Shown here: positions 1 to 16,560 of the stretch, piece by piece
Layout of the letters: each line of letters starts with the position of its first letter
Position numbering within the stretch: the stretch's first letter is position 1
From: Thiosocius teredinicola
GTDB lineage: Bacteria; Pseudomonadota; Gammaproteobacteria; Chromatiales; Chromatiaceae
DNA: 64,000 nt
Reading direction: 5' to 3'
Assembly (NCBI RefSeq): GCF_002009425.1
Contig: NZ_CP019936.1
Coordinates: 248,001-312,000 of the forward strand
The notes under the pieces: generated by a model
What the model saw: only the letters and a program-made list of their open reading frames with translations
The model's database searches: none
What the model was told of the DNA's origin: nothing
Translations under genes and position numbers: made by a program

Positions 1-819
1 CATGACCTCGGATACGGACGCCTCGCGCACGTCGATCCCGCGGTCGAGGCAACGACGCAAATCGCCGTCGGTGAAGATGCCGATGGCCTTGCCGTCGTGA
101 TCGACGACCGCGGTCATGCCCAGCCCTTTGGCGGTCATCTCCATCAGGGCATCACGCAGCGGCGCGTCGACGTTGACGGCGGGAATCTGGTCACCTTCGT
201 GCATGATGTCTTTCACTCGCAGCAACAGTCGGCGACCCAGGCTGCCACCGGGGTGCGACAGGGCAAAGTCTTCTGCGGTGAAGGCGCGCGCTTCGAGCAG
301 CGCGATCGCCAGCGCATCGCCCATCACCAGCGCGGCGGTGGTGCTCGCTGTCGGCGCCAGGTCGAGCGGGCAGGCCTCTTTGGCGACGCTGACGTCGAGA
401 TTCACATCGGCTTCGCGGGCCAGCGTCGATTCGGGCTTGCCGGTCATGCTGATCAGCGGGGCCCCCATGCGCTTGATCAGTGGCACGATGGTGACGATCT
501 CACTGGTCTCGCCCGAGTTCGACAGGGCGAGGACGACGTCGCTCGGCGTGATCATGCCCAGGTCGCCGTGGCTCGCTTCGCCGGGGTGGACGAAAAACGC
601 CGGGCTGCCGGTGCTGGCCAGCGTCGCGGCGATCTTGCTGCCGATGTGGCCGGATTTACCCATACCGGTCACCACGATGCGGCCGCGGCAGGCCAGCATG
701 TGTTCGCAGGCAGCGACGAAATTGGCGTCGATCCGCTCTTCGAGCGATTTGACCGCCTCAGTCTCGATCTGGACGACGCTCAGCCCGGCCTGGCGTAGTT
801 CATCAGCTTTTTGGCTCAT
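1..819 (-). CDS. kdsD: Arabinose-5-phosphate isomerase KdsD, 3' end outside the window
   Basis: It interconverts ribulose-5-phosphate and arabinose-5-phosphate, the first step to Kdo for lipopolysaccharide, in the cytoplasm. The 273 codons visible from the ATG at 817-819 translate into an N-terminal SIS sugar-isomerase domain with the motif VVTGMGKSGHIG, followed by a first CBS domain and the start of a second. The frame is open to base 1, so only the last roughly 50 residues of a usual 320-330 residue protein are missing. The calcium/sodium antiporter gene ends 18 bases upstream on the same strand, the same yrbG-kdsD pairing as in E. coli, so the two are probably co-transcribed and kdsC and the lpt genes are expected beyond the left edge. 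Confidence 0.95.
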   Translation of the reverse strand, partial: MSQKADELRQAGLSVVQIETEAVKSLEERIDANFVAACEHMLACRGRIVVTGMGKSGHIGSKIAATLASTGSPAFFVHPGEASHGDLGMITPSDVVLALSNSGETSEIVTIVPLIKRMGAPLISMTGKPESTLAREADVNLDVSVAKEACPLDLAPTASTTAALVMGDALAIALLEARAFTAEDFALSHPGGSLGRRLLLRVKDIMHEGDQIPAVNVDAPLRDALMEMTAKGLGMTAVVDHDGKAIGIFTDGDLRRCLDRGIDVREASVSEVM

Positions 820-837
820 TGTTTTCTCTCTGTCAGG

Positions 838-1818
838 TTAGGCCGCGGCGCTGGCGTGTGCTTGCCAGATGATCCAACCCTGGTAGGCGAGGAACGCCGC
901 CAGCAACAGGGCGCCCTGACCACGGTTGATCACTCCATGGGTATGCATGCTGCGTCCCATGACGAACAGCGCCAGCGTCAGGCCGAGCATCACCAGCATG
1001 TCGCGGCTGACGACTTCGTCCGGCAACAGGCCGGGCGCCAGTAGCCCCGGTATGCCGAGAACTGCCAGCAGGTTCCAGATGTTGGAGCCGATGACGTTGC
1101 CGATCGCCAGGTCGGGCTCGTTCTTGTGTGCGCTCATGATACTCGCAGCCAGCTCGGGCAGGCTGGTACCGATGGCCACGATCGTCAGGCCGATCACCAG
1201 GTCGCTGACGCCGAACGCTGCGGCGACCTCGACCGCGCCCCACACGAGCATCCGCGAACTCACCACCAGCACGATGAGGCCCACGACGAACCAGCCGGCG
1301 GCGGCCCTGGTGCTGAGGTCGGTCGGCAGTTCGGCCTCGATCTCGTCCACCAGTGGATCGTGGTCGCGGCGTTTCAGCCCGATTCTGACCAGCGCGTACA
1401 TGCTCGCCACCAGGCCGAGCAGCAACACGATGCCGTCGAAGCGATCCAGCTTGCCGTCCAGCAGCAACAAATAGGTGCCGGCGGATACCAGGAGCAATAA
1501 AGGGTATTCGCGGCGCAACATGTCGGAGCGCACCATCAGCGGGGCGATCAATGCGGTCGCGCCCAGGATCAGGCCGATGTTGGCGATATTCGATCCCAGC
1601 GCGTTACCGATCGCGATGCCGGGATTGCCCTGCAGCGCAGCCACCGTTGAAACCAGCATTTCCGGGGCCGACGTGCCGAAACCTACCACGGTGAGCCCGA
1701 TCAGCAGCGGCGGTACGCCGAGGTTGCGCGCCAGGCCGGCGGCACCGATGACGAAACGGTCGGCACCCCACACCAGGAATCCGAGACCAAACAGGATTGA
1801 AGCGGCGGCGAGCAGCAT
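838..1818 (-). CDS. yrbG: Calcium/sodium antiporter, YrbG family
   Basis: This is an inner-membrane cation exchanger of the CaCA superfamily with 326 residues and about ten hydrophobic segments. The two inverted alpha-repeats that form the ion-binding centre are visible: GFGTSAPE near residue 47 and AIGTSLPE in the second half, each starting with a G-x-G/A-x-T-S core and an acidic residue. An acidic loop in the middle separates the two halves, as is usual. Its start is the ATG at 1816-1818. It lies directly upstream of kdsD. In E. coli the gene is not needed for lipopolysaccharide synthesis, so the linkage may be only positional. The exact ion specificity cannot be read from sequence. Confidence 0.92.
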   Translation of the reverse strand: MLLAAASILFGLGFLVWGADRFVIGAAGLARNLGVPPLLIGLTVVGFGTSAPEMLVSTVAALQGNPGIAIGNALGSNIANIGLILGATALIAPLMVRSDMLRREYPLLLLVSAGTYLLLLDGKLDRFDGIVLLLGLVASMYALVRIGLKRRDHDPLVDEIEAELPTDLSTRAAAGWFVVGLIVLVVSSRMLVWGAVEVAAAFGVSDLVIGLTIVAIGTSLPELAASIMSAHKNEPDLAIGNVIGSNIWNLLAVLGIPGLLAPGLLPDEVVSRDMLVMLGLTLALFVMGRSMHTHGVINRGQGALLLAAFLAYQGWIIWQAHASAAA

Positions 1819-14218: not shown

Positions 14219-14258
14219 ACACTAGCATGAGGCGATCCACCCCAGGTGTTTGAACTTT

Positions 14259-14999
14259 ATGGCGTTGTTGAAGGATATCGTCAGTTACTGCGACCAGCGT
14301 CTCGACAGTTCGGCTTTCGATGACTACTGCCCCAATGGTCTACAGATCGAGGGGGCGGCCGAGGTTTCCAGCATCGTCTCAGGCGTCACCGCCAGCCAGG
14401 CAATGATCGACGCCGCGGCGGATGTCGGCGCCGACATGCTGCTCGTGCACCACGGCTACTTCTGGAAAGGGGAGGCAGCGCCTTTGGTGGGTATCAAGGG
14501 GCGGCGAGTGAAGGCGTTGATGCGTCACGACTTGAGCCTGGTGGCATACCATCTGCCGCTGGATGCCCACCCCGAACTGGGCAACAACCACCAACTCGGT
14601 ATCAAGCTGGGGTTCGGTACAGGGACGCCGGCCGGTGGGCTGCTGTGGGGTGTCGAGCTTGCGCGCCCGCTCACCAGCGAAGATCTGGCGAGCAGGGTCG
14701 ACTCGGCCCTCGGCAGGGCACCGCTGGTTGTCGGGCCGCAAGGGTCTGTGCGTCGCATTGCATGGTGCACCGGTGCCGCTCAGGGCATGATCGAGCAAGC
14801 GGCGGCGGCCGGGTTTGATGCCTTCATCAGCGGCGAGATATCCGAACAGACCGTCCACCAGGCTGCCGAACTGGGCATTCTGTACCTGTCTGCCGGCCAC
14901 CACGCCACCGAGCGTTACGGCGTTCAGGCACTGGGCGCAGAATTGGCCGATCGTTTCGCCGTTGCCCATCAATTCATCGACATCGACAACCCAGTCTAG
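14259..14999 (+). CDS. Nif3-like dinuclear metal centre protein (YbgI family)
   Basis: A 246-residue member of the Nif3/YbgI (DUF34) family, which forms a toroidal hexamer with a dinuclear metal site. Metal-ligand motifs are present: LLVHHGYFWKG (His-His), AYHLPLDAHPELGNN (His and Asp) and the C-terminal GHHATERYGV with His and Glu. The N-terminal YCPNGLQIEG signature is typical. The ATG at 14259 is preferred over the TTG at 14250. The physiological reaction of this family is unsettled despite database names such as GTP cyclohydrolase. Confidence 0.9.
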   Translation: MALLKDIVSYCDQRLDSSAFDDYCPNGLQIEGAAEVSSIVSGVTASQAMIDAAADVGADMLLVHHGYFWKGEAAPLVGIKGRRVKALMRHDLSLVAYHLPLDAHPELGNNHQLGIKLGFGTGTPAGGLLWGVELARPLTSEDLASRVDSALGRAPLVVGPQGSVRRIAWCTGAAQGMIEQAAAAGFDAFISGEISEQTVHQAAELGILYLSAGHHATERYGVQALGAELADRFAVAHQFIDIDNPV

Positions 15000-15077: not shown

Positions 15078-15692
15078 ATGACAGTGACAGAGGAGGCCGG
15101 ATTGCAACATTCAACCGACGGAGCGGGGCGACGCCGATTTCTGGCACGTTCGTTTTCGCTGCTTGGAGCGGCGTGTCTCAGCCGTGAGTCCTCCGCGGCA
15201 GCATGGAGTCTGCTGGCCGATACCAAGGCCTGTAATCAAGAGATCGACGTCGATATCGGCGACATCGAGCCCGGTGCGCGTCTCGATGTGGATTGGTGCG
15301 GTTTTCCCGTGTCGATCATCCACCGCACCGAAGCCATGCTGGCCTCGCTTGAAACGCTGGAACCTGGACTGCTCGACCCGCAGTCTGCGGCGCCGCAGCA
15401 GCCGGATACCTGCCGCAACCGCTCGCGTTCCATCGTGCCGCAGTACGGCGTTTATGTCGGCATCTGCACCTATCTGACCTGTTATTTGACCTATACACCG
15501 GCCAAGCCGGAGTGGAAGGGCCTGTGGCCGGCGGATTTCACGGGTTTCTATTGTGCGTGCCACGGATCGCGCTACGATCTGGCCGGCCGCGTCCTGCAAG
15601 GCGTTCCTTCCAAGCTCAACCTGGTGGTGCCACCACACCGCTACGTATCCGATCGGGTGATCCACATAGGCCCTGGGACGGCGGAAGCCTGA
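15078..15692 (+). CDS. Rieske-like protein, paralogue of PetA with one cluster His replaced by Tyr
   Basis: The 204-residue product aligns over its whole length with the PetA encoded 266 bases downstream: a twin-arginine-like N-terminal anchor (RRRFLARSF), a PQQPDTC segment and both cluster boxes. Box 1 is C130-T-Y132-L-T-C135 where PetA has C-T-H-L-G-C, so the first His ligand of the [2Fe-2S] cluster is Tyr. Box 2, C159-A-C161-H162-G-S, keeps its Cys and His ligands, and both disulfide Cys are present. It may carry an altered cluster, no cluster, or a structural role at the bc1 complex. The reading frame is intact and codon use is normal, so this is not an obvious pseudogene. Confidence 0.85.
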   Translation: MTVTEEAGLQHSTDGAGRRRFLARSFSLLGAACLSRESSAAAWSLLADTKACNQEIDVDIGDIEPGARLDVDWCGFPVSIIHRTEAMLASLETLEPGLLDPQSAAPQQPDTCRNRSRSIVPQYGVYVGICTYLTCYLTYTPAKPEWKGLWPADFTGFYCACHGSRYDLAGRVLQGVPSKLNLVVPPHRYVSDRVIHIGPGTAEA

Positions 15693-15957
15693 CCTCGCTG
15701 GGCAGCGACGCCCGCCACTTGGGCGGCGCCCAGCCGTAGGTCAGGAGACCCGCCGCCAGCGGCGCCTGCGTCTGATCGGCGTCAACCCGGCGGCGAATAA
15801 AGGCGTCAGACACCCTTTGGAGATACCCCTTCCTTGACCGGGGAAAGCCCATGTTGGAGAATCCGCGGTCGTTTGGGGAAATTCAGCATATTCTTAAATC
15901 GATCCGAAAGCGGTTGCGCGTATTTCCCCGCAATTTCGGGTCTGTGGGAGTCAATCC

Positions 15958-16560
15958 ATGAGTTCAGAAGGCGTAGACCTCAAGAAACGCCGTTTCCTGA
16001 CCGCCACCACTGCGGTTGTCGGGGCGGTGGGTGCCGGTTTTGCTGCCGTGCCGTTTATCATGTCCTGGAATCCATCCGAGCGCGCCAAGGCCCTTGGTGC
16101 ACCGGAAGAGGTGGATATCAGCAAGCTCGAGCCGGGCGCAAAAATCAACGTCAAATGGCGCGGCAAGGTGTGTTGGGTGGTCAATCGTACAGAGAGCATG
16201 CTGAACGACCTGCCCTCACTGAACGACAGACTCGCTGACCCGAATTCCGAAGTGCCGCAGCAACCTGAGTACTGCAAGAACGATACGCGTTCGATCAAAC
16301 CGCAGTACGCCGTGCTGATCGGTATCTGCACCCATCTGGGCTGTTCGCCGACCTATCGTCCCGATCTGGCCCCTGCCGACCTGGGCGCCGATTGGAAAGG
16401 TGGCTTCTTCTGCCCCTGCCACGGTTCGAAGTTCGACCTGGCCGGACGCGTCTACAAGAGTGTTCCGGCGCCGACCAACCTCGAAGTCCCGCCACATCAC
16501 TACCTGTCTGACGATCTGATTATGATCGGGATCGACGCTTCTGAGGGAGGTGCCGCATGA
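15958..16560 (+). CDS. petA: Ubiquinol-cytochrome c reductase iron-sulfur (Rieske) subunit
   Basis: PetA is the Rieske subunit of the cytochrome bc1 complex that takes one electron from ubiquinol and passes it to cytochrome c1. The 200 residues start with a Tat-type anchor (KKRRFLTATTAVVGAVGAGFA, uncleaved membrane helix). Ligands are Cys124 and His126 in box 1 (CTHLGC) and Cys152 and His155 in box 2 (CPCHGS); Cys129 and Cys154 form the disulfide. The start follows GGGAG at seven bases, and the stop overlaps petB by four bases. Confidence 0.97.
   Translation: MSSEGVDLKKRRFLTATTAVVGAVGAGFAAVPFIMSWNPSERAKALGAPEEVDISKLEPGAKINVKWRGKVCWVVNRTESMLNDLPSLNDRLADPNSEVPQQPEYCKNDTRSIKPQYAVLIGICTHLGCSPTYRPDLAPADLGADWKGGFFCPCHGSKFDLAGRVYKSVPAPTNLEVPPHHYLSDDLIMIGIDASEGGAA

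Follow-up and report, generated by a model that had tools for sequence, protein, structure and literature searches.

The stretch of Thiosocius teredinicola DNA analyzed here (64,000 nucleotides, hereafter the window) carries two petA-type genes in succession on its forward strand. The downstream one (15958..16560) is petA proper, which has the canonical boxes CTHLGC and CPCHGS and is followed by petB and petC. The upstream one (15078..15692) is an intact open reading frame coding for a petA-like paralogue of 204 residues. It is itself preceded by a gene on the same strand (14250..14999) whose product, judging from its sequence, is presumably nif3/YbgI-like. The paralogue is 44% identical to the adjacent PetA over 193 columns. 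Its match to the PetA family model TIGR01416 of NCBIfam (143.6 bits, above the cut-off of 97.4) indicates that it is not a random ORF. Its score against the Pfam Rieske model is 13.9 bits, below the cut-off (gathering score) of 20.3, and in this respect it is unlike PetA. The solved structures nearest to it are PetA of P. aeruginosa (8smr_C) and of T. tepidum (7yr9_A, also 7yra). The broken frame typical of a pseudogene is not seen, as all 204 codons are free of internal stops. The paralogue is a real, intact, PetA-type Rieske protein.

The distinguishing feature of the paralogue lies in box I (GICTYLTC, 15459..15482), where Tyr132 replaces a ligand His. Its codon TAT (15471-15473) aligns with CAT (16333-16335) for His126 of the adjacent PetA, and the two codons differ by one C-to-T transition. 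The core of the box thus reads CTYLTC in the paralogue and CTHLGC in PetA. All 56 PetA rows compared, the genome's own PetA among them, have CTHLGC; rows L003 and L004, which have no cluster motif, were left out of these PetA statistics, while L002 (a copy of L001) and L059 (a fragment) were left out of all counts and of the tree. Box II (CACHGS, 15552..15569) supplies the ligands C159 and H162, the disulfide residue C161, and Ser164. The Cys-His/Cys-His ligand set is therefore incomplete (C130, Y132, C159, H162), and the Cys pair that would form the disulfide between the two boxes (C135, C161) is present as residues read from the sequence. Tyr166 occupies a position where 55 of the 56 PetA rows carry Phe, and the Pro loop (15603..15620) is VPSKLN in place of VPAPTN. 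The sequence-only reading of this DNA had described the His-to-Tyr change together with an intact frame, four retained box Cys and a retained second His, and each of these points proved to be correct. A sequencing error as the sole cause of Tyr132 is unlikely in a protein just 44% identical to PetA, the more so because three more near-invariant positions in this loop have changed as well (G128T, P131L and R134T, PetA numbers).

The N-terminal region presents a mixed picture. The twin-arginine motif is kept (GRRRFL), and the segment consisting of RRRFL and a short hydrophobic stretch (15129..15206) is broken by Arg24, Arg36 and Glu37. We computed hydropathy over the 45 residues preceding the hinge. 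The best 19-residue Kyte-Doolittle mean is 0.95 for the paralogue versus a mean of 1.92 for PetA (sd 0.18, minimum 1.47, n=56), so that the segment is less hydrophobic than in every one of the 56 PetA rows. Likewise, the longest run without D, E, K, R, H, N or Q is 11 residues, versus at least 22 in the 56 PetA. Consequently, of the claim that a Tat-like anchor remains, the RRRFL motif stands and the anchor does not. The membrane anchor has been lost, and anchoring of the kind seen in PetA appears unlikely. The segment looks too poor for a PetA anchor; read by eye, it resembles a signal for export that might be cut close to AAA-W, giving a cleaved, exported form. For PetA of other bacteria, the available text of one study describes an uncleaved Tat signal that serves as the membrane anchor (PMC3623810). 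By eye, LLGAAC might also suggest a lipoprotein. This candidate is unsupported, with Arg24 lying too near: the usual lipobox pattern would not tolerate Arg so close.

To see which conserved residues went, we considered the 62 columns that are near-invariant (at least 96% invariant in the 56 PetA rows). The paralogue keeps 42 of them and has lost 20. The losses are concentrated in the anchor and hinge (10/14 versus 10/48 elsewhere, Fisher p 0.0008), which indicates that the membrane part went most. In the box I loop 4 of 12 such residues are replaced (H126Y, G128T, P131L, R134T, PetA numbers), which taken alone is no significant excess (p 0.24). Box II and the Pro loop account for three losses out of 15 (F159Y, A171S, P172K, PetA numbers), and all remaining regions for three out of 21. 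In the five tested PetA rows that diverge most, more near-invariant residues are kept, from 57/66 to 60/63. At variable columns, 103 of 128 paralogue residues are seen in PetA, and the corresponding counts for two divergent PetA rows are 106/131 and 107/129.

Related genomes were then searched for the gene. Two of the eight congeners gave no PetA match. In all six with a readable locus, nif3 is followed by petA with no paralogue between them, the gap being about 175-212 bp between hit ends. The gene is absent from the locus in these genomes, and the orthologues with a conserved Tyr next to petA, which the sequence-only reading had proposed to look for, were not found. Among the matches listed, no full-length relative of >50% identity was seen in the family (210 genomes), class (369) or phylum (398) samples, the class and phylum sets being samples and the sets overlapping. 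The other matches listed in the family sample, best E first, range from 41 to 50% identity; higher values come from two short pieces at contig ends, one of 36 residues (67%) and one of 46 residues (52%). With matches thresholded at E 1e-48, the order level (the same 210 genomes) contains five others, all five with CTHLGC, and the class sample of 369 two others, both with CTHLGC. The phylum sample of 398 contains none at this threshold.

We also scanned a genome collection of 84,980 species with a Tyr-box pattern. The pattern accepts only TGC as the codon of the first Cys and allows a restricted spacing, so other Tyr-box genes may be missed. It found nine stretches, seven of which are coincidences: one (L061) lies out of frame in a canonical petA and six have frames of 13-47 residues. 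No other intact Tyr-box PetA was found among the 84,980 species with this TGC-only pattern. In Sedimenticola hydrogenitrophicus (L059, about 560-870, reverse strand) there is a petA remnant reduced to roughly the C-terminal 87 of 200 residues, with boxes CTYLGC and CSCHGS; ORFs farther along that locus look phage-like by eye. A Meiothermus MAG (L064:2363-2845) has CTYLGC in a small intact protein of another Rieske family. Conservation of this Tyr within the Meiothermus family was considered and rejected: 17 other genomes were searched, and all of the best 11 relatives, which were read, have His (CTHLGC, CTHAGC, CTHQGC or CPHAGC). The Meiothermus record is therefore a private variant or an error (coverage 3.9). 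Among viral contigs, the Tyr-box pattern matched one stretch, and the part of it that was read contained no Rieske frame; neither the paralogue nor PetA, used as queries, had a relative there. On plasmids, 106 records match, all at <60% identity; of the 15 listed, 10 are annotated petA and five fall where there is no feature. In the open-licence literature searched, we found no report of Tyr at the Rieske box-I position or of the paralogue gene.

Several measures address the selection acting on the gene. In the tree, the end branch of the paralogue amounts to 5.54 changes per column, versus a median of 0.25 and a next longest of 2.36. Compared with PetA, the paralogue has pS 0.66, pN 0.37 and pN/pS 0.56 (bootstrap 95% 0.46-0.68), and pN reached or exceeded pS in none of 2000 bootstraps; purifying constraint has thus acted in the past. 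dN/dS is 0.19-0.41 for the paralogue versus seven PetA genes and 0.12-0.17 for the genome's own petA versus six congeners. These ratios, like pN/pS, are rough, since synonymous sites are near saturation. When neutral evolution was simulated, with no indels, until identity had fallen to 44%, 2.4% of 500 runs stayed stop-free and the mean was 3.66 stops. Roughly, and for one genome only, constraint on the paralogue appears weaker than on petA but present for much of the divergence. The sequence-only reading had counted against itself a change unique to this genome combined with signs of relaxed selection. Uniqueness is borne out in our searches, which revealed no other intact Tyr-box PetA. The signs of relaxed selection are divided: the long branch, pN/pS and the anchor and hinge losses point to it, and the bootstraps and the absence of stops point away. 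As to origin, the AU test rejects neither a pairing of the paralogue with its own PetA nor a position next to the genus (p 0.324 for both), with strong long-branch effects. Duplication within its own genome is thus compatible with the tree. Third-position G+C of the paralogue equals that of petA (0.69), and nine other genes measured have 0.75-0.85.

A sigma-70-like promoter match (TTGACC-17-GAGAAT, 15834..15862, + strand) lies before petA and 3' of the paralogue. Its TTGACC is conserved in 6/6 congeners. Between 14900 and the paralogue start no promoter match was found. In most of the six aligned congeners, conservation in the region corresponding to about 15834-15890 of the window (TTGACC ... 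GGAGAATCCGCGGTCG) extends beyond the promoter boxes, and the conserved stretch could possibly be a regulator site.

What the altered site might hold can be approached by comparison with characterized Rieske proteins. In the Rieske ferredoxin ARF of Sulfolobus, the available text reports that a [2Fe-2S] cluster was still assembled after His64 had been changed to Cys, whereas with Cys in place of His44 the insertion or assembly of the cluster failed (PMC2946596). His44 stands two residues after Cys42, which by our own reading would make it the box-I position occupied by Tyr132. For T. tepidum PetA, whose ligand numbering is the same as in the adjacent PetA, the available text describes a form without a cluster (PMC10492824). 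Its Zn sits on Cys124 and Cys152 plus two chlorides, while His155 has moved out of the site and His126 contacts chloride only. As the box-I His of this Zn form contacts only chloride, Tyr132 need not block Zn binding. By analogy, C130 and C159 of the paralogue could provide a site for zinc, and a normal Rieske cluster seems unlikely. A structural model of residues 43-204 from four sequences (pLDDT 61.8, pTM 0.64) is too weak for the geometry of Tyr132. Modest as it is, it best matches Rieske chains of bc1 (8smr_C, E 6.5e-13; 7yr9_A, 5.9e-12). A whole-protein model from a two-row alignment (pLDDT 41) is too poor for use.

We regard the chances as even that the paralogue is a lineage-specific, exported, anchor-less petA duplicate that acts outside bc1 and lacks a normal cluster. 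Most of the Rieske scaffold would survive in such a duplicate, along with the Tat motif, the second His, the disulfide pair and the two innermost Cys; what it would have shed is the box-I His as well as the hinge and the membrane anchor. Tat would export it as a soluble periplasmic protein that is no longer a bc1 subunit. Its tip would lack a normal Cys2-His2 [2Fe-2S] cluster; at most, the two Cys would bind a metal such as zinc, or the tip would carry a cluster that is not stable. The protein would probably have become a binding or stabilizing factor and would no longer serve bc1 as an electron carrier. Since a canonical PetA is encoded next door, bc1 should not need the paralogue, and the loss of anchor and hinge makes a subunit role unlikely. 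Counted against this explanation are third-position G+C below that of the nine other genes, the lack of a promoter match from 14900, and the fact that three of the four ligands, the disulfide Cys, the cluster H-bonding Ser164 and Tyr166 are all kept. A disused site might be expected to lose ligands, as happened in the two other PetA-like proteins of this genome (see below). With 42/62 retained overall, however, it is no surprise that both disulfide Cys and three ligands are still there. The same retention, far below that of the five divergent PetA rows, also fits decay. Indeed, the main rival, less probable in our estimate and still a serious one, is a redundant petA duplicate in slow decay under relaxed selection, with a frame that is open by chance. 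The paralogue was seen in this genome alone and is missing at the locus in all six readable congeners; its end branch is long and its dN/dS, though rough, is above that of its own petA. It has lost 20 of 62 near-invariant residues, and CAT to TAT needs just one transition. The CTYLGC of the Sedimenticola hydrogenitrophicus remnant means that this change can arise in dying copies. Decay accords less well with the lack of any stop or frameshift at 44% identity, with pN clearly lower than pS across the entire divergence, and with residues at variable columns that are nearly as PetA-like as those of divergent PetA.

The sequence-only reading had listed a tuned low-potential cluster, a cluster-free subunit and a three-ligand site open to substrate. 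The ligand change could leave the site altered or free of a cluster; nothing found speaks in particular for cluster tuning or for a site open to substrate. We consider it unlikely that the paralogue is a periplasmic redox protein whose [2Fe-2S] centre works with Cys2-His-Tyr ligands or with an open iron site. This reading would account for the three ligands, the disulfide Cys and the H-bonding Ser164 and Tyr166 that are kept, and would suit Tat export, which favours proteins that fold with their cofactor. Against it, no conserved Tyr-box Rieske protein was found, the one Meiothermus Tyr record facing 11 His relatives, and the corresponding His to Cys change gave no cluster in the archaeal Rieske protein, as far as the text available describes it (PMC2946596). 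That such a Cys2-His-Tyr protein was freed from bc1 by anchor loss, as a redox carrier or sensor born from petA, would be a long shot. Least probable is an alternative or regulatory bc1 subunit that replaces PetA under some condition. The gene does lie directly upstream of petABC and the modelled fold is of the bc1 type, but anchor and hinge are lost and the petA promoter match is downstream of the paralogue. Moreover, the box I loop and the Pro loop dock to cytochrome b, and both the box I loop (4/12, p 0.24 alone) and box II with the Pro loop (3/15) are altered.

Among known systems, the paralogue is closest to PetA of bc1 (TIGR01416), with which it appears to share the scaffold, and shares the Tat motif, the innermost Cys, the disulfide pair, the second His and the Ser by box II. 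It differs in having Tyr for the box-I His, no membrane anchor, and a changed hinge and Pro loop. With the Zn form of T. tepidum PetA it may have in common a site that folds and binds metal on two Cys without a cluster; that form, as the available text presents it, is an immature state of the wild-type protein, in which both His are present, and not the product of a separate gene (PMC10492824). The 'deranged' Rieske subunits of Acidocella, in the part of the source available, likewise combine natural ligand loss with retained disulfide Cys (PMC10715153). They have lost three or four ligands, whereas the paralogue has lost one and has a canonical PetA adjacent, and so does not belong to their type. 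The Sulfolobus ARF mutants tested the corresponding ligand position by engineering, though His was changed there to Cys and not to Tyr, and the protein was a soluble Rieske ferredoxin from an archaeon and not of the PetA type (available text of PMC2946596). Provided that the cell makes the protein and that it is stable, it would be a natural test of a Rieske scaffold without the box-I His, a question so far approached by mutagenesis in the literature we found. It would also show parts specific to bc1 (anchor, hinge, ligand) shed with most of the scaffold retained. As a single-genome gene, it makes a modest case.

Outside the window, the same genome codes for two further PetA-like proteins, at L068:8330-8911 (C1:974329-974910) and at L069:8904-9479 (reverse strand). 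Both are without the C.H and C.CH motifs and keep a hydrophobic N-terminal anchor and a Rieske C-terminus; they score 61 and 44 bits, respectively, against TIGR01416 (below the cut-off) and have no Pfam match. The L069 protein has one Cys left per box region, perhaps as a disulfide pair. Relatives of the L068 protein occur in congener G003 (L084, 77%) and in G057 (L085, 38%). The surrounding region (L068:1-18001, C1:966000-984000) contains 31 repeats of about 150 bases, in three families, between short ORFs. Two of these repeats flank the PetA-like gene, and the region looks like an integron cassette array.
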